Below, in pieces: positions 1 through 9,425 of a stretch of 64,000 nucleotides of DNA. A model generated the notes under the pieces. It was not told the origin of the DNA. It did not search any database and saw only the letters and a program-made list of their open reading frames with translations. The position numbers and the translations under genes are program-made. The stretch is from Streptomyces mobaraensis NBRC 13819 = DSM 40847 (GTDB lineage Bacteria; Actinomycetota; Actinomycetes; Streptomycetales; Streptomycetaceae): positions 4,923,501 through 4,987,500 of the forward strand of contig NZ_CP072827.1 in NCBI RefSeq assembly GCF_017916255.1, in the 5' to 3' direction. Position 1 is the first letter of the stretch, and every line of letters begins with the position of its first letter.

Positions 1-2
1 CC

Positions 3-1598
3 GTGGAGTTCCCCGCCGAGAACGGTCCCGTACGCGCCGTCCACGAGCTGTCCTTCACCCTGCCGCCCGGCGGCGCGCTCGGCATCGTCGGCGAGTCCGG
101 CTCGGGCAAGAGCACCGCCGCGTACGCGCTCCTCGGCCTGCACCACGGGACGGGCGCCCGGCTCACCGGCTCGGTACGGGTCGCCGGGCACGACGTCACG
201 GCGGCCGGTGAGGCGGAACTGCGGCGGTTGCGCGGCGCCACGGCCGCCATGGTCTTCCAGGACCCGCTCTCCTCCCTCGACCCCTACCAGGCCGTCGGCG
301 ACCAGATCGCCGAGGTCTACCGCGTCCACCACCGGAACGCCTCCCGACGGGCCGCGCGGGCGCGGGCCGTGGAGGTGCTCGACCGGGTGGGCATCCCGGA
401 CGCCGCCCGCCGCGCGCGCTCCCGGCCGCACGAGTTCAGCGGCGGCCAGCGGCAGCGCGCCCTGATCGCCATGGCCGTGGCCTGCGGGCCCCGGCTGCTG
501 GTCGCCGACGAGCCGACGACCGCCCTCGACGTCACCGTCCAGGCGCAGATCCTCGCCCTGCTGCGGGAGCTGCGCGAGGAGACGGGCATGGGGCTCGTCC
601 TCGTCACCCACGACCTGGGGGTGGCGGCGGGCGGCGTCGACGAGCTGCTGGTGATGAAGGACGGCCGCGCGGTCGAGCACGGGCCGGTGCGTACCGTCCT
701 GGACACGCCGCGCGAGCCGTACACGCGCGCCCTGCTGGACGCCGTGCCGCGCGTGGAGGTACGGCGTGCGCCGGTGCCGCGTGAGGAACCGCCGGGGGAC
801 GACTCCGTGCTGCTCGAAGCGGTCGGGCTGCGGCAGGAGTTCGGGCGCGGGCGGCGGGCCGTCACCGCCCTGGACGACGTGTCGCTGACCGTCCGGGCGG
901 GGGAGACCGTCGGCGTCGTCGGCGAGTCCGGCAGCGGCAAGACGACGCTCGGCCGGGCGCTGGTCCGGCTGCTCGCCCCCACCGCGGGCGAGATCCGCTA
1001 CCGGGGGCGGGACATCGGTGCCCTGAACGACCGCGCGCTGCGGCCGTTCCGCAGTGAACTCCAGATGGTCTTCCAGGATCCCGTCTCCTCCCTCAACCCG
1101 CGCCGCAGCATCGGCGAGTCCATCGCCGACCCGCTGCGCGCGGCCGGCCGGCTGACGGACGCGCGGATCGTCGCCCGGGTACGGGACCTGCTCGACCGGG
1201 TGGGCCTCGACCCGGACGCCTACCACCGCTACCCGCACGAGTTCAGCGGCGGCCAGCGGCAGCGCGTGGGCATCGCCCGGGCCCTGGCGCCGGAACCCCG
1301 GCTGATCGTCTGCGACGAGCCGGTCTCGGCGCTGGACGTCACCACCCAGGCGCAGGTCGTCGCCCTGCTGGGCGAGTTGCAGCGCGAACTGGGCATCGCC
1401 CTCGTCTTCATCGCCCACGACCTCGCCGTCGTCCGGCAGGTCAGCGACCGCCTGGTGGTGATGCGCCACGGGGCGATCGTGGAGGAGGGCCCGGCGGACG
1501 CCGTGTACGACCGGCCGGAACACCCGTACACGCGGGGGTTGCTGGCGGCGGTGCCTCGGGTGGACGCGGTGGCCCGTACCAGCCCGGCCGGCGTTTGA
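3..1598 (+). CDS. Fused dipeptide/oligopeptide ABC transporter ATPase (DppD-DppF-like), 5' end outside window
   Basis: This protein carries two ABC ATPase domains in tandem and would energise uptake of peptides (or related substrates such as nickel) through a membrane permease. The first domain has a Walker A motif near residues 30-38, the signature FSGGQRQRA and a Walker B ending in DEPTTALD. The second repeats the set with [18 protein letters not shown] and DEPVSALD. After each ATPase there is the oligopeptide-type tail ([16 protein letters not shown]) seen in OppD/OppF proteins. The first GTG falls only about 27 residues before Walker A, shorter than usual, so the true start and the permease genes very likely lie upstream of the window. 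The family is clear; the substrate is inferred. Confidence 0.9.
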
Positions 1599-2057
1599 GG
1601 CCGCCGAGCGGCGCGGGGAGCAGTGGCCGATCTCAGCGTGGCCTGCGTTTGATGCCGAGCGGCGCAGCCGCGACGAAGCGGGGGCGCGCGGGGGCGCAGC
1701 CCCTGCGAGAAACGGGAAGTGGGGTCCCCCCTCTGGGGGAGGGGCAGGGGCACAGCTCCGCAGGACAGCCCCCGGGGACCCGCGCTGCCGGACGCTCGGG
1801 GCCTGGGCCTCGCGCTGCCGGACGCTCGGGGCCCGGACCCCGCGCTGCCGGACGCCCGGGGCCCCGGACGCGACCACCCGCCCCACCAGGGCGAGAACCG
1901 TTCGCCCCGGCCAAGCGCCCATAACGTCCCCCAAAGAGGAAGGTCACGCCCGTTCACCCCTTCCGGTGGTGCGACGGACAACCGTCCGTCGCACCACCTC
2001 CGCGCCCCCATAGCGTGCTCCCGGCTGCCGGACGACTGAGGGATCGGGGGTGCGCTC
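1599..2057. other. Repeat-rich intergenic region
   Basis: I see no convincing gene here. The stretch starts with a degenerate direct repeat: the sequence around the ABC stop codon (CGTTTGAGGCCGCCGAGCG) recurs near 1648 as CGTTTGATGCCGAGCG. It also contains a G-run/C-run palindromic block near 1724-1760 and an exact-period 30-bp array at 1781-1870. Similar GC-rich dispersed blocks are common in Streptomyces intergenic DNA. Open frames through it on both strands look like GC-composition artefacts. The final part must hold the promoter of the glycosyltransferase operon, but I cannot point to clear hexamers. Confidence 0.6.
1781..1870. repeat. 30-bp tandem repeat, three copies
   Basis: Three units begin at 1781, 1811 and 1841, each opening with CGCGCTGCCGGACG and continuing with a G-rich half (CTCGGGGCC or CCCGGGGCC). 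The period is exactly 30 bp and the first 23 bases are nearly invariant. Because 30 is divisible by three, every frame stays open across the array, which explains the spurious ORFs here. Confidence 0.85.
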
Positions 2058-3593
2058 GTGCGCGTGGGACTGCTGACCGAGGGTGGGTACCCGTACGCCG
2101 CTGGTGAGGGCGGGGAGTGGTGCGACCGGCTCGTCCGCGGGCTCCCCCGGCACGAGTTCGAGGTGTACGCGCTGAGCCGCAGCGCCCGCCAGGAGGACGG
2201 CGGTTGGTACGCGTTGCCCGGCAACGTCCGCCGGATCCGGGCCGCCCCGCTGTGGGGCGGACCCGCGCCCGGCGGGGCGGCGCGCGCCCACGGCGCGTAC
2301 GGCCGGCGCGAACGCCAGCGCTTCACCGCCCACTTCGGCGACCTGGCCGCCGCCCTCACCACACCCGGCGACCAGGCGTACCGTTTCGCCGAGGGCCTCT
2401 ACGGACTCGCCGGCCTGGCCCGCGACGAGGGCGGCCTCGTCGCCGCGCTCCGCTCCGAACTCGCCCTGCGCGCCCTGGAGACGGCCTGTCGCGCCCCCGA
2501 AGCGCATCCCGGCGCGCAGGGCGTCCGCGTCGCCGACCTCCTCGTCGTCGCCGGCCTCCTGGAACGGGCCCTGCGCCCGCTCTCCCTCGACTGGTACGGG
2601 GCCCCGGACGGCGACCTCGGCCTGGCCGGCGTCGACCTGTGCCACGCCGCGTCCGCCGGTCCGGCCGCCCTGCCGGGGCTGCTCGCCCGGCGCTTCTTCG
2701 GCACACCCCTGCTCGTCACCGAGTACGGCGTCCGGCTGCGCGAGCACTACCTCACCGAACCGACGGGCCTCTCCGTACCCGTCCGCACCCTGCTGTCCGC
2801 CTTCCACCGGCTGCTGGCCGGCGAGACGTACGCCCGCGCCTCACTGATCACCCCCGGCGACGCGCAGGTCCGCCGCTGGCAGGAGCGCTGCGGCGCCGAC
2901 CGCGGCCGGCTGCGCACCGTCCCGCCGGGGGTGGACGCGAGTCTGTACGAGGCCGTCGGCGAGGTCCGTCCCGAGCGGCGGGGGGAGGGGCCGGTGCTGC
3001 TCCTCGCCGGGGGCCCGCCCGAACCCTGGCTCTGGGAGGCGACCACCGTCCTCACCCTGACCCGGCCGGACGTCCGGCTGCGCGTCACCGGCGTCCCGGA
3101 GGGCGGGCCGCTGCCCGAGGGCGTCACCCGGGTCGCCGCGTGCGGCCCCGAGGACTACGCCGACGCGGACGTCATCGTCGTCGCCTCCTCCGGCGAGGGC
3201 TTTCCCGTCCCGCTGGCCGAGGCCATGTTCTGCGGCCGGGCCACCGTCGTCCCCGACACGGCGACGGCCCGCGAAGTCGTGGGCGGCACCGGCCTGGTGG
3301 TGCCCGCGCACGACCCGCACGCCCTCGCCGAGGGCTGCCTCACCCTGCTCGACGACCCCGCCCGCGCGGAGCGGCTCGGCGCCGCCGCCCGGGCCCGCGC
3401 CCTGGAACTCTTCACCGTGGAACAGAACATCGCCACCTTCGGCGGCATCTATCTGGAGCTGCTGTCGGCCGCCCCGGCGCGGCAGGACGTCGCCGCCCCG
3501 CGCGACGCGGCGTCCCTCGCCGCCGCCGGACGCCCGCGCGGCCTCGCCTGGTCCGCCCGTCCCGCCTCGCCGTCGTGGGCGGGCCGCCGGTGA
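2058..3593 (+). CDS. PelF-like glycosyltransferase (DUF3492 + GT4)
   Basis: A family 4 glycosyltransferase, likely cytoplasmic, expected to use a nucleotide sugar. The N-terminal half (about residues 1-290) opens with VGLLTEGGYPY and a GGEWCDRL segment, the hallmark of DUF3492/PelF-type enzymes. The C-terminal half has the GT-B donor site with the EX7E motif at about Glu380 and Glu388 (GEGFPVPLAEAM). It is 511 aa, normal for the family. The GTG start has a G-rich run about 8 bases upstream. The stop overlaps the next gene's start by 4 bases (GTGA), so it heads a translationally coupled operon with a membrane protein, an epimerase and a spherulin-4 protein. PelF makes a GalNAc-rich polymer in other bacteria; the sugar used here is unknown. 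Confidence 0.85.
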   Translation: MRVGLLTEGGYPYAAGEGGEWCDRLVRGLPRHEFEVYALSRSARQEDGGWYALPGNVRRIRAAPLWGGPAPGGAARAHGAYGRRERQRFTAHFGDLAAALTTPGDQAYRFAEGLYGLAGLARDEGGLVAALRSELALRALETACRAPEAHPGAQGVRVADLLVVAGLLERALRPLSLDWYGAPDGDLGLAGVDLCHAASAGPAALPGLLARRFFGTPLLVTEYGVRLREHYLTEPTGLSVPVRTLLSAFHRLLAGETYARASLITPGDAQVRRWQERCGADRGRLRTVPPGVDASLYEAVGEVRPERRGEGPVLLLAGGPPEPWLWEATTVLTLTRPDVRLRVTGVPEGGPLPEGVTRVAACGPEDYADADVIVVASSGEGFPVPLAEAMFCGRATVVPDTATAREVVGGTGLVVPAHDPHALAEGCLTLLDDPARAERLGAAARARALELFTVEQNIATFGGIYLELLSAAPARQDVAAPRDAASLAAAGRPRGLAWSARPASPSWAGRR

Positions 3594-5311
3594 CGCGCGC
3601 CGCGGCAGCGGCCGCCGATCCCGTAGCCGACCTCGATTGCGGGGGGACCGCGATCCCCGCGCAGGCGGGTTCGCGCCGGACGGGTCCGGGGCCCGCGGGT
3701 CCCGCGCCGGCCGTCGGCATACCTGCCGCTCACGGGCGCCCCGGGGCGGCCCCCGACCCCGTTCGCGCCCTCCTGCTCCGGCACCACGCGGTGTGCGCCG
3801 ACGCCGTCGACCCGTGGGAACTCGCCGCGCGGCTGGAGGCGCGGGGCGTCACCGACCGCGCGGCGGCGGCCTGCGGACACCAGGACGTCTTCTCGCTGGC
3901 GGAGGAGCTCCACGCGCGCGTGGGCGCGACGGCCCGCGCGGATGGGGTACGGGCTGCCGGGAACGGGAGGCGGAGGTCCGACGAGGTCGAGTGGCCGCAG
4001 TTCCGGACGCGGGACTGGGGGCGGTACGGGACGCCGGGCGCCTCCGGTGCGGAGGGGGCGCCGGCGCCCGGCGGGGGAGCGGACCTCGGCTCCCGCGCGG
4101 CCGGACGACCCTCGCGCGCCGCCGACCTCGTCGGTGCTTCGCGCGACGTCTACGCCGCTGTCGAAGTATCGCGAGCCTCGGGGGGCTCCGAAGTGCCCTG
4201 GGGCTCAGGGGCCTTCGGGGCTTCCGCACCCTCGGGAGCCTCTGGAGCCCCTGAGGACACAAGCGACCCTCGCATGGCGCGAGACCCGTACGCCCCGCAC
4301 CCGTCCGACGCCCACGGCCTGTGCCCCGCCCGCCCCCGCCGTGCCCGACGGACCGTCGTCGGGGCGCTGGCCTGGGCCTGGCTGCTCGCCTACGGGTGCG
4401 TCGGCGACCGGCTGCTCGACGCGCTGCTGCACGGTCACGGACGGCCCGGCCCTCGCGCCCTGGCCTTCGCGGCGGCACCCACCGCCCTCGGGCTGGCCTG
4501 CGCCGTCGCGCCCGCCGCGTGGTGCGCGCACGCCTTCGCCGGGTACGCCCGGCGGCGGCTGGCCGACAGCCGCACGCTGACCGCGTTCCGCGTACGGGCC
4601 CGGTGCGCCCTGCCGGCGATCCTCGCCGTCGTCCTGGGCGCCCTCTTCCTGTCCGTGTGGACCGCCCGGTCCGCCCTCCCCGGGCTCGGGCACCCGACGT
4701 CCGTCCCTGCGCTCGCCGCCGTCGCCCTCGGCTTCCTGCTCTTCCTCGACCGGCTCTGCGCCGCCCACGGCCTGGCCCGGCCGGCCGCCGCGGCCGTCCT
4801 CGCGGCCTGCGCCGCCGAGGCGCTGCCGCCGGTGCTGCTGCTCGCCGCGCGGCTGCCCGGCTGCGCCGCCCTGGGCTGGCCGGTCACCAGGCTGCCCGGT
4901 CCCCTCGGGCCGTCCGCCCCCGGGCTCGTCGCCTGCGCCGGGGCGGCCCTCGTCCTGACCGCGCGGGCCTTCGCGGTCCTGCCGCACGCGGCCGTCCACG
5001 GACTCGGCGGACCGGACGCGGCGGGCGTGCCGGGCGTGCCGGGCGTGCCGGGCACGACAGTGGCGGCGGGACCGGCCCACCTGCCACCGAGCCACGCCGA
5101 CCGTTCCGACTCGTCGTTCGGTTGCCCCGGCCGGTCATCCGGCCCCCTCGGCCCGTCGTCCGGCGACCTCGGTCAGTCGTCCGGCGACCCCGGCCCCTCA
5201 TCCGGCCGCCCCGACCCCTCGCCCGGCCGCCTCCCCGGATCCTCCCTCCGCCCCGGCGGGGCCGGGCCCTCCGTACACCCCCGTCAGAGGAGCACCCACC
5301 ATGACCGTTGA
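3590..5311 (+). CDS. Multi-pass membrane protein with disordered ends, polysaccharide operon
   Basis: I do not recognise a named family. The first roughly 245 residues are Gly/Ala/Ser/Pro-rich and look disordered. Residues about 250-480 hold several hydrophobic segments, for example around ALAWAWLLAYGCV, AILAVVLGALFLSV and AAVALGFLLFL, suggesting five to seven membrane spans. The tail is Pro/Ser/Gly-rich with short repeats (GVPGVPGVPG, then SSG-type octamers at roughly 5137-5225). The frame is open far upstream, so I chose GTG 3590 because it overlaps the preceding stop codon. Given its neighbours it may help assemble or export a polysaccharide, as PelG does in Pel systems, but no PelG signature is visible. 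The start and the function are both uncertain. Confidence 0.6.
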   Translation: MTRAAAAAADPVADLDCGGTAIPAQAGSRRTGPGPAGPAPAVGIPAAHGRPGAAPDPVRALLLRHHAVCADAVDPWELAARLEARGVTDRAAAACGHQDVFSLAEELHARVGATARADGVRAAGNGRRRSDEVEWPQFRTRDWGRYGTPGASGAEGAPAPGGGADLGSRAAGRPSRAADLVGASRDVYAAVEVSRASGGSEVPWGSGAFGASAPSGASGAPEDTSDPRMARDPYAPHPSDAHGLCPARPRRARRTVVGALAWAWLLAYGCVGDRLLDALLHGHGRPGPRALAFAAAPTALGLACAVAPAAWCAHAFAGYARRRLADSRTLTAFRVRARCALPAILAVVLGALFLSVWTARSALPGLGHPTSVPALAAVALGFLLFLDRLCAAHGLARPAAAAVLAACAAEALPPVLLLAARLPGCAALGWPVTRLPGPLGPSAPGLVACAGAALVLTARAFAVLPHAAVHGLGGPDAAGVPGVPGVPGTTVAAGPAHLPPSHADRSDSSFGCPGRSSGPLGPSSGDLGQSSGDPGPSSGRPDPSPGRLPGSSLRPGGAGPSVHPRQRSTHHDR

Positions 5312-5441
5312 TCCGACCGTCCCCGGCCCCACCAGTCCGGCCGGAACCGGCACGGACATCGACACAGGCGCCGACACCGGCACCGAAACCGGCGTCCCCG
5401 CCGGCCGTCGCGGCGGACGAGAGCGAGGAGGAGAACGATGA
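5301..5441 (+). CDS. Small ORF (46 aa) coupled to both neighbours
   Basis: This 46-codon frame has an ATG with a strong ribosome-binding site (GAGGAG, 8 bases upstream). It overlaps the membrane protein's end by 11 bases and the epimerase start by 4 bases (ATGA). The peptide is Thr/Gly/Asp-rich with a Thr-Gly-Asp alternation and an Arg/Gly-rich end. Third positions of the first 37 codons are about 80% G or C, which fits coding. It fills what would be the only gap in an otherwise fully overlapping operon. It could be a real small protein or only a coupling leader for the epimerase. No family is recognised. Confidence 0.45.
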   Translation: MTVDPTVPGPTSPAGTGTDIDTGADTGTETGVPAGRRGGRERGGER

Positions 5442-6352
5442 GGGTCCTGTTGCTCGGTGCCAACGGCTACCTCGGCCGCTTCGTCGCCGACCGCCTGCTC
5501 GCCGATCCCGCCGTCCAGCTCACCGCCCTCGGCCGGGGCGACGACGCCGACGTCCGCTTCGACCTGGCCACCGGCAGCCCCGGTGCGCTCACCCGGTTCC
5601 TCAACGCCGTCCATCCCGGCGTCGTCATCAACTGCGCGGGCGCCACCCGCGGCGGCGCCCGCGACCTGACCCGGCACAACACCGTGGCCGTCGCCACGGT
5701 CTGCGAGTCGCTGCGCCGCAGCGGCTGCGGGGCGCGGCTCGTGCAGGTGGGCTGCTCCTCGGAGTACGGGCCCTCGCAGCCCGGTTCGTCCACGGCCGAG
5801 GACGCGGTGCCGCGCCCCGGCGGCCCGTACGGCGTCAGCAAGCTCGCCGCCACCGAACTCGTCCTGGGCTCCGGCCTGGACGCGATCGTGCTGCGCGTCT
5901 TCTCGCCGGTCGGCCCGGGGACCCCGGCCGGTTCGCCGCTGGGCCGCCTCGCCGAGGCGATGCGGCGGGCCATGCAGAACGGCGACAACGAGCTCAAGCT
6001 CACCGGACTCGGCGTCCAGCGCGACTTCGTGGACGTCCGCGACATCGCGCGGGCCGTGCACGCCGCGTCGCTCTCCGCCGCCCAGGGCGCCGTCAACATC
6101 GGCACCGGCCGGGCCACCCGGCTGCGGGAGGCCGCCTCGCTGCTCGCCCGTGTGGCCGGCTTCGGCGGCGCCCTGCATGAACTCGACGACCCGCACTTGG
6201 GCGCCACGCCCGTCTACCCGTACCCGGACGGCTGCGGCGCCTGGCAGCAGGCCGACGTGCGCACCGCCCGCGACCGGCTCGGCTGGCGGCCCCGGATCGG
6301 CCTGGAGGAGTCGCTGGCCGACATCTGGATGGAGGCCGCGTGTCGTATCTGA
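5438..6352 (+). CDS. NAD-dependent epimerase/dehydratase (extended SDR)
   Basis: A cytoplasmic sugar-nucleotide-type oxidoreductase of the extended SDR family, 304 aa. The Rossmann motif GANGYLG is at residues 7-13. The active-site region has a Ser-rich CSSEYG at 106-111 and the YxxxK pair at Tyr131/Lys135 (YGVSK). A substrate-domain motif RDFVDVRDIA follows. In polysaccharide clusters such enzymes typically interconvert UDP-sugars such as UDP-GlcNAc/GalNAc, which fits the adjacent PelF-like transferase. The start overlaps the upstream small ORF (ATGA) and is preceded by GGAGG-like sequence. The stop overlaps the next gene by 13 bases. The substrate is inferred only. Confidence 0.85.
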   Translation: MRVLLLGANGYLGRFVADRLLADPAVQLTALGRGDDADVRFDLATGSPGALTRFLNAVHPGVVINCAGATRGGARDLTRHNTVAVATVCESLRRSGCGARLVQVGCSSEYGPSQPGSSTAEDAVPRPGGPYGVSKLAATELVLGSGLDAIVLRVFSPVGPGTPAGSPLGRLAEAMRRAMQNGDNELKLTGLGVQRDFVDVRDIARAVHAASLSAAQGAVNIGTGRATRLREAASLLARVAGFGGALHELDDPHLGATPVYPYPDGCGAWQQADVRTARDRLGWRPRIGLEESLADIWMEAACRI

Positions 6353-7095
6353 CCTCGTCCGGCAACCGCCGCCCGCTCCCCGCGGCCAAGACGCCGCTGC
6401 GGCTCGGCGTCCCCGGATTCGCCCACCCGCTCGTCGCGCCCGTCGAGTGGGGGCGGCTCTGCCGCGCGGACCTCCCGCTGGACTGGACGGTGCTCGGCAG
6501 CGCCTCCGGCGGGCCCGGCAGCCGCCCGGACCCGTACTGCACGGCCGCCGCGGCACCGCTGCGCGAGGCCGGCGTCCGGGTCCTCGGCCATCTCGACGCC
6601 GCCTTCGGCGCCCGGCCGTTCGGCGAACTCCTCTCCGACGCGCAGCGGTTCCTCAACTGGTACCGGGTGGACGGCTTCGCGGTGGCCCGCTGCCCGGCCG
6701 ACACCGGCGCGCTCGCGGACGTCCGCCGCGTCACCGGCGCCCTGCGCACCCTCCACGACCGGGCGTACCTCGTGCTCCTGCACGGCAGCCACCCGGTCGC
6801 CGGATACGCGGCGCTCGCCGACCAGTTGGTGACGTTCACCGGCCCCTGGAACCGCTACCGCTGGTCCCGCCCCGCCGACTGGACGGCCGACCACCCGCCC
6901 GGCCGCTTCTGCCACCTCGTCCACAGCGTCCCCCGCGCCCACCTGGAGGAAGCGCTGCTCATCACCCGCCGGCAGGGCGCCGGCACCGTCTACATGACCG
7001 ACCGCACCGACCGCGACGGACTGGACCCCTGGGAGTCCATGCCCGGGTACTGGGACGATTTCATCTCGAACATCGGACCGGGTGTCTCGGAATGA
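6340..7095 (+). CDS. Spherulin-4 / GH135-like protein
   Basis: A 251-aa protein matching the spherulation-specific family 4 (GH135, Sph3-like) fold. It shows the family's GPGSRPDPYC segment, the VRVLGHLDAAFGARPF strand-loop, and the FLNWYRVDG segment. In the family the following strand usually reads GIFFDE with acidic residues; here it reads GFAVARCP, so the expected acidic pair is missing at that point. No signal peptide is visible, so it looks cytoplasmic. It ends a five-gene overlapping operon with a PelF-like transferase and an epimerase. Family members act on galactosaminogalactan-type polymers in fungi. Catalytic activity here is doubtful and the partner role is inferred. Confidence 0.75.
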   Translation: MSYLTSSGNRRPLPAAKTPLRLGVPGFAHPLVAPVEWGRLCRADLPLDWTVLGSASGGPGSRPDPYCTAAAAPLREAGVRVLGHLDAAFGARPFGELLSDAQRFLNWYRVDGFAVARCPADTGALADVRRVTGALRTLHDRAYLVLLHGSHPVAGYAALADQLVTFTGPWNRYRWSRPADWTADHPPGRFCHLVHSVPRAHLEEALLITRRQGAGTVYMTDRTDRDGLDPWESMPGYWDDFISNIGPGVSE

Positions 7096-7114
7096 GCCGG
7101 GGCGTGGCAGTGTT
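7089..7114 (+). promoter_or_regulatory. SigR-type promoter of moeZ
   Basis: GGAAT at 7089-7093, an 18-base spacer, then GTT at 7112-7114, an exact match to the known SigR consensus (GGAAT-N18/19-GTT). The -35 element overlaps the last codons of the spherulin-4 gene. Transcription would start near 7121, about 60 bases before the moeZ GTG. moeB/moeZ is a known SigR target in Streptomyces coelicolor, which supports the call. Confidence 0.8.
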
Positions 7115-7179
7115 ACCGGGGAAGTACAGAACGCTGCCTCTACCTTCCCCGCTCCCGTGGGGATGACCCTGGAGACCCC

Positions 7180-8358
7180 GTGTCGCTGCCACCCCTGGTC
7201 GAGCCGGCTTCCGAGCTCACCGTCGACGAGGTCCGTCGGTACTCGCGCCACCTGATCATCCCGGACGTCGGGATGGACGGGCAGAAGCGCCTGAAGAACG
7301 CGAAGGTGCTCTGCGTGGGCGCCGGCGGCCTCGGCTCGCCCGCCCTGATGTACCTGGCCGCCGCCGGCGTGGGCACGCTCGGCATCGTGGAGTTCGACGA
7401 GGTCGACGAGTCCAACCTCCAGCGGCAGATCATCCACAGCCAGTCCGACATCGGCCGCTCGAAGGCCGAGTCCGCGCGGGACTCGGTGCTCGGCATCAAC
7501 CCGTACGTGAACGTCGTCCTCCACCAGGAGCGCCTGGAGGCGGAGAACGTCAAGGAGATCTTCTCCCAGTACGACCTGATCGTCGACGGCACGGACAACT
7601 TCGCCACGCGCTACCTGGTCAACGACGCGTGCGTGCTGCTGAACAAGCCGTACGTCTGGGGCTCGATCTACCGCTTCGACGGCCAGGCGTCCGTCTTCTG
7701 GAGCGAGCACGGCCCCTGCTACCGCTGCCTCTACCCCGAGCCCCCGCCGCCGGGCATGGTCCCCTCCTGCGCCGAGGGCGGCGTGCTCGGCGTGCTCTGC
7801 GCGTCGATCGGCTCCATCCAGGTCACCGAGGCGATCAAGCTGCTGGCCGGGATCGGCGAGCCGCTGGTCGGCCGCCTGATGATCTACGACGCCCTGGAGA
7901 TGTCGTACCGCCAGGTCAAGGTCCGCAAGGACCCCGAGTGCGCGGTCTGCGGCGAGAACCCGACCGTCACCGAGCTGATCGACTACGAGGCGTTCTGCGG
8001 CGTCGTCTCGGAGGAGGCCCAGGAGGCCGCCGCCGGCTCCACGATCACTCCCAAGCAGCTCAAGGAGTGGATGGACGACGGCGAGAACATCGACGTCATC
8101 GACGTCCGCGAGCCCAACGAGTACGAGATCGTCTCGATCCCCGGCGCCCGCCTCGTCCCCAAGAACGAGTTCCTGATGGGCACCGCCCTCCAGGACCTCC
8201 CCCAGGACAAGCGCATCGTCCTGCATTGCAAGACGGGCGTCCGCTCCGCGGAAGTCCTCGCCGTCCTCAAGTCCGCCGGCTTCGCGGACGCGGTCCACGT
8301 CGGCGGCGGCGTCATCGGCTGGGTCAACCAAATCGAACCGCACAAGCCGGTGTACTGA
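7180..8358 (+). CDS. moeZ: Adenylyltransferase/sulfurtransferase MoeZ
   Basis: MoeZ activates the C-terminal glycine of sulfur-carrier proteins with ATP and passes sulfur to them, serving molybdopterin and thiocarboxylate-dependent pathways in the cytoplasm. The N-terminal E1/ThiF domain has GAGGLGSP near residue 47 and the following DEVDESNLQRQ segment. Two CxxC-like zinc pairs follow (YRCLYP region and CAVCGE). The C-terminal rhodanese domain (about 285-392) carries the active-site loop HCKTGVRS. The length of 392 aa is typical. GTG 7180 has a GGAG site about 7 bases upstream. It is monocistronic, bounded by a SigR-type promoter and a hairpin terminator, so it should be induced by thiol stress. 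Confidence 0.95.
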   Translation: MSLPPLVEPASELTVDEVRRYSRHLIIPDVGMDGQKRLKNAKVLCVGAGGLGSPALMYLAAAGVGTLGIVEFDEVDESNLQRQIIHSQSDIGRSKAESARDSVLGINPYVNVVLHQERLEAENVKEIFSQYDLIVDGTDNFATRYLVNDACVLLNKPYVWGSIYRFDGQASVFWSEHGPCYRCLYPEPPPPGMVPSCAEGGVLGVLCASIGSIQVTEAIKLLAGIGEPLVGRLMIYDALEMSYRQVKVRKDPECAVCGENPTVTELIDYEAFCGVVSEEAQEAAAGSTITPKQLKEWMDDGENIDVIDVREPNEYEIVSIPGARLVPKNEFLMGTALQDLPQDKRIVLHCKTGVRSAEVLAVLKSAGFADAVHVGGGVIGWVNQIEPHKPVY

Positions 8359-8400
8359 GCGCGGGAGCACTGGTCGGGGAGAAGCCCTCACCGCTACCCT

Positions 8401-8430
8401 CTCCTCACGGCCCTCCGGGGTCGTGAGGAG
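8401..8430 (+). terminator. Hairpin terminator after moeZ
   Basis: CTCCTCACG at 8401-8409 pairs with CGTGAGGAG at 8422-8430, and the stem extends inward with a G-T pair and CCC/GGG to a 4-base loop. No U-run follows, as is common in Streptomyces. Confidence 0.65.
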
Positions 8431-8596
8431 CGTCGGCGACGTGTCCGATGGGGGACGGCGCTCCCACCCGCATCCGGGCAACCGAGCACCACCGAGCCTT
8501 CAATCGTCGCGGAGTCTCAGCAGACCATCCACAGGGTGGTCGGGCTGAGGCACGCCTGCCGACAGGTCGACCACCTTCCGGTGAAGGGACCGACCG

Positions 8597-8824
8597 ATGC
8601 GACCGACGTTCTCCGTCCAAGCGCTCCTGATGCTTCTGGCCTTCGTCTCCGCACTGCTGATCGCCGTCGTCGCGGGCGTGCTCTCTCACAGCAACGGCGT
8701 CCGCGCGGCGGGCGCGGTGCTGTACGGCGGCGGCGCGTTCATCGCCTGGATGACACTGTGCGTCTCCGTGCTCACCGCCCTCGGTCTGCTCGGGGGAGCG
8801 GGGGGTGCGGGGCGTGACGACTGA
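8597..8824 (+). CDS. Small membrane protein, unknown
   Basis: A 75-aa protein with two hydrophobic segments (about residues 9-28 and 38-64) and a Gly-rich acidic tail ending GRDD. The ATG has a GAAGGGA site 7 bases upstream. I do not recognise a family. It stands alone between moeZ and the UTRA/GntR pair; the 238 bases upstream hold the moeZ terminator and no other gene I can see. Two-span proteins of this kind are frequent in Streptomyces and mostly uncharacterised. Confidence 0.65.
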   Translation: MRPTFSVQALLMLLAFVSALLIAVVAGVLSHSNGVRAAGAVLYGGGAFIAWMTLCVSVLTALGLLGGAGGAGRDD

Positions 8825-8882
8825 CTGCGGTCGACAAGGGTGCAGCCGCTACCGTGAGCCCCTCCGGACGAGGGGGGAGACG

Positions 8883-9425
8883 GTGTCAGACCAGCAGTGG
8901 GAGAGCGAGTCCGCCAGGTATCTGGTTCCGCGCGGACACGGGCGGCCCGACGCGTGGGCTGAAGAGGCCGCCGAGCGGAGGGGCCGGGGCAGGCAGCGGC
9001 TGCTGGAGGCCGGGGTCGTCGAGGCGTCGGATGACGTGGCGCGGGCCCTTGAACTCGCCGACGGCGAGCGTGCGGTGGTCCGGCGGCGGCTGGTGTTGCT
9101 GGACGACGCGCCCGTCGAGATCGTGACCTCTTACTACCCCGGCCGCATCGCGGAGGGGACGCCGCTCGCCGAGGGAGGCAAGGTTCCCGGCGGCGCGGTC
9201 ACCTTCCTGGCCGGACCTGGGTACCTCGCGAAGAAGGTGGAGGAAGGCGTCAGTTGCCGTATGCCCACGGCTGAGGAGCGGCAGCTGCTCCTCCTCGGTG
9301 AGCACGAGCCTGTGCTCGTCGTCTCGCGGCTCGTGCTCGCCGACGGTGACGTGCCCGTGGAAGTCTGCGCGATGGTCATGAACGCCCGAGACAGGATCGT
9401 GCGTTACCGGATGCGGATGGGCTGA
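8883..9425 (+). CDS. UTRA-domain ligand-sensing protein without DNA-binding domain
   Basis: This 180-aa protein is a UTRA effector-binding domain of GntR/HutC regulators. It shows the pattern RRRLVLLDDAPVEIVTSYYP, then EEGVSCRMPTAEE, and the closing strand VEVCAMVMNARDRIVRYRM. No winged-helix segment precedes it. GTG 8883 has a GGGGGGAGA site just upstream. The next gene starts 2 bases after its stop and encodes a GntR winged helix (with a frameshift), so the two could work as a split repressor. The ligand is unknown. The start could be earlier (GTG near 8805), but the RBS favours 8883. Confidence 0.75.
   Translation: MSDQQWESESARYLVPRGHGRPDAWAEEAAERRGRGRQRLLEAGVVEASDDVARALELADGERAVVRRRLVLLDDAPVEIVTSYYPGRIAEGTPLAEGGKVPGGAVTFLAGPGYLAKKVEEGVSCRMPTAEERQLLLLGEHEPVLVVSRLVLADGDVPVEVCAMVMNARDRIVRYRMRMG

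Follow-up and report, generated by a model that had tools for sequence, protein, structure and literature searches.

Actinobacterial operons that combine a transferase, a multi-span membrane protein and a GH114 protein, in some cases together with a spherulin-4 protein, are described in the part of Bamford et al. 2020 (PMC7229062) on which we draw. The Gram-positive pelDEADAFG operon, as presented in extracts of Whitfield et al. 2020 (PMC7112168), includes a PelF/DUF3492-type transferase, and the fungal galactosaminogalactan (GAG) cluster comprises Sph3 (GH135), Agd3, Ega3 (GH114), an epimerase and a synthase. The locus studied here lies in a 64,000-nucleotide stretch of the Streptomyces mobaraensis NBRC 13819 chromosome (NZ_CP072827.1, positions 4,923,501 to 4,987,500; hereafter the window). 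Under family models its genes are called PelF-like, epimerase and spherulin-4, names that point to a biofilm polymer. The window is part of a 7.57-Mb chromosome carrying two DUF3492 genes, and the features relevant to this work are as follows:

1953..1998, + strand: conserved block TTCACCCCTT... closing in a palindrome at 1965-1998 (15-base arms, AACC centre)
2058..3593, + strand: GT, a DUF3492/GT4 glycosyltransferase paralogue that lacks the donor-loop Arg and Lys and part of the donor domain
3590..5311, + strand: MEM, 573 aa; helical N-terminal domain (residues 57-124), disordered linker, six predicted TM helices, disordered tail
5301..5441, + strand: leader ORF, 46 codons in the window; its TGA overlaps the EPI ATG
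5438..6352, + strand: EPI, an extended short-chain dehydrogenase/reductase (SDR) with Cys-Tyr-Lys for Ser/Thr-Tyr-Lys, under the strongest constraint in the set
6340..7095, + strand: SPH, GH135/spherulin-4 fold; no signal-like hydrophobic N-terminus, other residues at the positions of the catalytic Asp and the acid/base Glu
7180..8358, + strand: moeZ (adenylyltransferase/sulfurtransferase), a constant downstream neighbour that we do not claim as a member of the system

All five frames from GT to SPH are open, with successive overlaps of 4, 11, 4 and 13 bases, just as the original prediction had described them. The cassette shares a cytoplasmic transferase, a multi-span membrane protein and a spherulin-4 gene with operons in the covered part of PMC7229062 (the last with some of them only), and the fuller variant of this parent type also shares an EPI homologue with it. 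In contrast to that operon class, as the same part of the source presents it, the window has no Agd3-like, GH114, LegB-like or nucleotidyltransferase gene; its SPH, EPI and MEM are altered, in the window's clade GT too, and it carries a leader ORF and a palindrome of its own. With pelDEADAFG, the PelF/DUF3492-type transferase is held in common, whereas the cassette matches none of the PelD, PelE, PelA and PelG families. The absence of PelA, PelD and PelE, already proposed, was borne out in a scan of the five frames and near neighbours, no PelA, PelD or PelE model of Pfam or NCBIfam matching any of the five. PelG exceeded its cut-off in 3 of 296 Actinomycetota genomes; the genome of the window is not among them, its best PelG (PF16933) match scoring 27.7 bits against a cut-off of 29. 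The GH135 fold and an epimerase-class SDR are common to the window and the fungal GAG cluster, whereas the window SPH lacks the acid/base Glu and a signal-like N-terminus, and the window transferase is of GT4 type.

The second DUF3492 locus lies at ~0.77 Mb in the same genome (G000:C1:767500-777600; L003:1489-11530). Beside its GT gene stand those for MEM, a secreted Agd3-like protein, a LegB-like dehydratase and a nucleotidyltransferase. The locus also encodes an EPI homologue (45%), a Spherulin4 protein (42%) and a GH114 protein whose start is lipoprotein-like. GT, MEM, EPI and SPH of the window are paralogues of genes in this operon and follow the same order, which supports the suggested kinship with Pel/GAG-type operons. 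At the 0.77-Mb locus, the catalytic residues of both the transferase and SPH are intact. The secreted protein itself scored 14.3 bits for Agd3 (cut-off 27.6) and gave no PDB match, while 9 of 10 of its relatives matched Agd3_CE at E ≤0.1 (best 8.8e-7). This operon is the likelier maker of a Pel/GAG-type polymer in this genome, compared with the window copy. Among 17 parent-type loci with GT and downstream genes, this one included, eight hold EPI and nine are shorter, lacking LegB, nucleotidyltransferase and EPI; GH114 is present in 12 of the 17. The shorter sets (L136-L138, L143, L144, L146, L148-L150) encode a PelF-type transferase, MEM and SPH with intact residues and mostly adjoin Agd3-like and GH114 genes (L136 was omitted from A5). 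A PelF-type transferase with a spherulin-4 protein but without Pel partners had been put forward as a new arrangement; it is not new, because this operon class is known from the covered part of PMC7229062 and is present in the window's own genome.

Across the genus, we compared 100 loci (L035-L134) that were picked via their transferase, so that GT is present by selection. L035 and L058 are one region, L004 is the window and L003 the paralogue; duplicates and the paralogue were removed from counts of distinct loci. The complete order GT-MEM-EPI-SPH-MoeZ, as in the window, was seen in 93 of 100 loci, the remaining seven running out at contig ends, so that the cassette order is real and beyond chance. 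In tblastn alignments, identity to the window was 73-99% for EPI and 46-88% for GT. A start codon lies on the GT stop (last four GT bases ATGA or GTGA) in 90 of 97 loci, counted directly at the GT end, as choosing the nearest start for MEM would favour an overlap of 4. The SPH start codon sits 13 bases inside the EPI end in 91 of 92 loci; the sole exception, L115, has its SPH start 364 bases past EPI, a possible frameshift or assembly fault.

Sought independently of GT, EPI of the window type turned up in every one of the 181 genus genomes in an order sample, the weakest match having E 8.3e-134. Beyond the genus, a single further genus of the family has it (G475, 63% identity), and 15 genomes from other families gave no match at E ≤1e-30. 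Five genomes were checked by handle: G008 and G475 have window-type EPI, G010 gave a match of 48 residues followed by a masked stretch, and G001 (79% complete) and G017 (1140 contigs) yielded no window-type EPI, their matches being a paralogue or less. The cassette is thus a Streptomyces-wide paralogue of a Pel/GAG-type operon.

GT matches Pfam DUF3492 with 99 bits (cut-off 23.3) and contains GT4 domains. Against the PelF model NCBIfam NF038011 it scored 61.8 bits, below the curated cut-off of 100, compared with 169.3 bits for the paralogue in the same genome. Two further transferases of the window's clade scored 55.5 (L055) and 56.4 bits (L057), and L064 was not listed; five window-type transferases outside this clade reached 88.6, 97.0, 102.9, 103.1 and 108.2 bits, so that three of the five pass. 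We built a quick maximum-likelihood tree from 58 transferases (L168 left out as a fragment), in which the 29 window-type rows form a single clade (SH-aLRT 100) on a stem of 1.15 changes per site, which joins the Agd3-type group (SH-aLRT 94) apart from PelG-linked PelF; the outgroup set consisted of three actinobacterial PelF genes located beside PelG, and a long-branch warning applies there. The DUF3492 type of the predicted PelF-like transferase is therefore confirmed but its PelF membership is not, notwithstanding the passing scores outside the clade, and clustering away from PelF had been named beforehand as an outcome that would speak against the proposal.

In GT4 enzymes, the donor site is served by a donor-loop Arg and Lys and the EX7E motif. 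The window GT has lost the Arg and Lys and kept EX7E. Among the 18 loci of the window's clade, Lys is lost in all 18 and Arg in 13, and the first donor-site Glu is replaced by Asp in 14, the window retaining Glu. Thirteen of these 18 transferases form one group in the tree (SH-aLRT 99), and the other five were placed by identity; several species of the clade were formerly called Streptoverticillium. Outside the clade, 79 of 82 window-type loci keep all four donor residues (Arg, Lys, Glu, Glu), as do all 18 parent-type transferases, and the donor loop is broken in the sister genus G475 too. Five species (netropsis, olivoreticuli, cinnamoneus, griseocarneus and mashuensis) hold, among the best 120 of 3539 matches, a second GT beside the broken window-type one, and this second GT is 81-84% identical to the intact paralogue GT of the window genome.

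MEM has no Pfam match, PelG (PF16933) included. Six helices in the structure model agree with six hydropathy segments, compared with about 12 helices in the own-genome paralogue. Neither membrane model gave a Foldseek match at E ≤0.001, and our statement on the fold rests on VIA-align and profile comparison: the MEM model aligns to one lobe of a MATE-like fold, and MEM and its paralogue share a 60-residue match and, in the profile comparison of the C-terminal half, 99.6%. MEM is thus predicted to be about one lobe of a MATE/MOP-like flippase fold. The full two-lobe fold with 12 TM helices is not seen, given the helix counts and the single lobe aligned, in contrast to MATE/MOP flippases (PDB 9r10, 6ids and WzxE 9g9p), which the window protein is predicted to resemble in one lobe rather than two. 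The proposed structural comparison with PelG and flippases hence points to a MATE-like lobe without a PelG family match, and the description as an unassigned multi-span protein stands for "multi-span" only.

EPI matches the Pfam NAD epimerase family (124.6 bits, cut-off 20.9) and contains the extended-SDR motifs GxxGxxG and YxxxK. SDRs have a catalytic Ser/Thr four residues before the tyrosine of the YG pair. All 93 window-type loci have Cys here, as against Ser in all eight paralogues and in G475; an SDR can remain active after such a replacement of Ser/Thr by Cys. The galE model gave 30.4 bits against a curated cut-off of 262.3. The nearest PDB entry is a GDP-6-deoxy-4-hexulose reductase (79.5 bits), and the best entry named UDP-glucose 4-epimerase scored 52.2 bits. 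The predicted sugar epimerase accordingly stands as an epimerase-class SDR but not as a galE member, and with a reductase as nearest structure we rejected the supply of UDP-GalNAc as a demonstrated role.

For SPH, the GH135-like assignment was upheld by the Spherulin4 profile (66.5 bits, cut-off 30.2) and by a profile match to Sph3 in the PDB (E about 6e-15). In alignment with Sph3 (5c5g, 5d6t), FFDET becomes FLLDRC and VFEA becomes TFSG in the window family, and at the columns of the catalytic pair the window has Ala (for Asp) and Thr (for Glu), so the active GH135 pair is absent. None of the 92 distinct window-type loci has the acid/base Glu; the catalytic Asp is kept in 69 of the 92, the window not among them. 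Both residues are kept in all 20 compared relatives (18 parent-type operon loci and two stand-alone genes). An Sph3 D166A variant is inactive according to the consulted part of PMC8546845, which also notes for this enzyme class that inactive glycosidases can serve as lectins; in the section of PMC12054363 used here, Glu222 of Sph3 is the acid/base, with the nucleophile printed as Asp196. A simple hydropathy window detected no signal-like hydrophobic stretch at the SPH N-terminus, and some Agd3-type SPH proteins lie near the lipoprotein control. All compared window-type loci have a GH135-fold protein without the acid/base residue and an SDR of Cys type. The EPI-SPH pair is not universal in the family, because the sister-genus locus in G475 (L255) reads GT-MEM-EPI-MoeZ without SPH. 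One phage record gave a weak spherulin-type match (22.9% identity).

The 46-aa frame between MEM and EPI has no Pfam match. In 92 of 92 window-type relatives, the TGA of the upstream frame overlaps the EPI ATG (ATGA). Under our own rule of an ATG start with a ribosome-site-like motif, 90 relatives have a leader, spanning 11-20 codons in 84 of the 90; a conserved 46-aa protein was rejected on this count, and by comparison of these lengths the window ORF reads as a lengthened form of a short leader. All 92 relatives have AGA or AGG at codon 2 of EPI; of the other Arg codons of EPI, 76 of 2970 are of this kind, and the own-genome paralogue uses CGG at codon 2. Any role of the leader would lie in translation rather than in the peptide, because its amino-acid sequence varies among relatives.

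The palindrome upstream of GT, a candidate operator or 5' hairpin, is present in all 97 readable loci, each of which holds the centre used to seek it; of the 100 loci, two had too little flank and one was masked by N. Its arms are perfect in 38 loci, carry one mismatch in 41 and two to five in 16, and are mis-registered in two. Arm mismatches summed to 104, whereas shuffling the right arms among sequences 1000 times gave 163 on average and 142 at the least. Variable pairs are T-G more often than C-A, in related sequences that are not independent. From the palindrome centre to GT the distance is 82 bases in the window and mostly 101-104 in other loci. A search allowing 3 mismatches detected it in 131 of the 150 genus genomes, as against none for the reversed pattern, and missed it in 19, the well-assembled G200 and G210 included; it occurs once in the window's own genome. 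Just before it (window 1942-1962) lie GT(T/C)AC-type half sites, which we take to resemble response-regulator boxes. G475 (L255) has a partly similar GTTCACTCCTTC stretch upstream of GT. A search of 1600-7700 for sigma-70-type promoter sites gave none, and an ARAGORN call of tRNA-Thr at 1847-1921 is probably false, as no Rfam family matched at E ≤1 in bases 1-9000.

A GT match at E ≤1e-20, paralogues included, was obtained in 139 of 150 genus genomes. We opened five genomes that have the palindrome and a weak or missing GT, plus G008, whose locus (L261) stops at a contig edge and was not counted as a loss. In L257, GT is reduced to its N-terminal part and MEM was not found; in L258 neither gene was found; L259 has a GT remnant of ~70 residues and a further short piece, with no MEM found; L260 has a GT remnant and MEM; and L262 has only the N-terminal part of GT and a MEM match of ~30 residues. 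All five keep MoeZ, EPI with the Cys motif (~85-89% identity), and SPH without the acid/base Glu, starting 13 bases inside EPI. The leader ends on the EPI start in four of them and just before it in one. Hence, GT, and mostly MEM too, can be lost while palindrome, leader, EPI and overlapping SPH persist.

Mean dN/dS, from simple NG86 counts on hand-picked pairs, was 0.277 for GT, 0.470 for MEM, 0.031 for EPI, 0.239 for SPH and 0.089 for MoeZ within the clade (8 pairs), and 0.251, 0.430, 0.085, 0.223 and 0.083, respectively, outside it (10 pairs). By these counts EPI is the most constrained gene in the clade, and a GT with a broken donor site is not drifting freely, since its clade value of 0.277 indicates purifying selection.

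Conservation, residue losses, deletions and overlaps jointly favour leader, EPI and SPH as the working core of the cassette, with GT and MEM dispensable and no exported Pel/GAG polymer built by this copy; we assign this reading a probability of about 0.58. EPI and SPH would be made in coupled amounts via the leader-EPI-SPH overlaps. EPI would be a cytoplasmic SDR, catalytic with Cys, acting on a nucleotide sugar or a GalNAc-type glycan, and SPH its sugar-binding partner without hydrolysis, while GT and MEM would be remnants, at most a membrane-side scaffold. If this is true, a core Streptomyces gene set bears a misleading name. More tentatively, the operon may have turned into a cytoplasmic Cys-type SDR and a GH135-fold sugar-binder that sense or adjust GalNAc-type metabolism, with GT and the half-flippase optional; co-production of the two proteins would then rely on the leader ORF and the gene overlaps, with a dedicated palindrome in front.

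The originally predicted polymer has to be weighed against this core. A minimal Pel/GAG cassette, in which GT polymerises epimerase-made UDP-GalNAc, MEM exports the chain and the spherulin-4 protein trims it, would account for the domain set and the kinship with Agd3-like/GH114 operons, and it could draw on the loci outside the clade, 79 of 82 of which keep the donor residues, and on the SPH Asp kept in 69 of 92. However, the window's donor site is broken, MEM is about half a flippase, SPH lacks a signal-like N-terminus and, in 92 of 92 loci, the acid/base residue, and the five frames include neither a deacetylase nor GH114. Moreover, other species without GT still keep EPI-SPH, and EPI is nearer in the PDB to the reductase (79.5 bits) than to UDP-glucose 4-epimerase (52.2). 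We judge this reading improbable; polymer synthesis by the window copy is unlikely because the acid/base Glu is found in 0 of 92 loci and the GT donor site is broken in the clade.

GT is probably active in most Streptomyces, because the donor residues are kept in 79 of 82 loci and dN/dS is 0.251 outside the clade. The same two figures, together with the 90 of 97 loci in which a start codon sits on the GT stop, would suit an active glycosylation unit working on lipid, protein or a short glycan in most of the genus, composed of GT, a shortened flippase, the SDR and SPH as a chain-binding subunit, with late GT decay in the window's clade and a few others. This account seems to us rather unlikely, as GT dN/dS in the clade is not clearly higher (0.277 vs 0.251), unlike simple decay, and EPI is if anything more constrained there. 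That the whole cassette is a non-functional relic drifting to loss might be read from the lost residues and truncations, but mean dN/dS lies well below 1 for every gene and overlaps, leader and palindrome are conserved over the genus, which makes it highly implausible. For the leader-EPI-SPH core, species naturally without GT and MEM reveal which cassette genes are important, and laboratory strains would allow direct tests of the invariant Cys, of the leader ORF and of the palindrome.

A search of the open-access literature (most subscription papers being outside its scope) found no study of this cassette. In S. coelicolor, SCO5179-5182 are assumed to be the cassette from their adjacency to SCO5178 (moeB), the only gene from SCO5178-SCO5182 for which a literature tag was found. 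Two of the surveyed loci, titled Streptosporangium nondiastaticum (L069) and Kitasatospora aureofaciens (L086), hold a Streptomyces-type transferase locus, and these titles may be misassigned.
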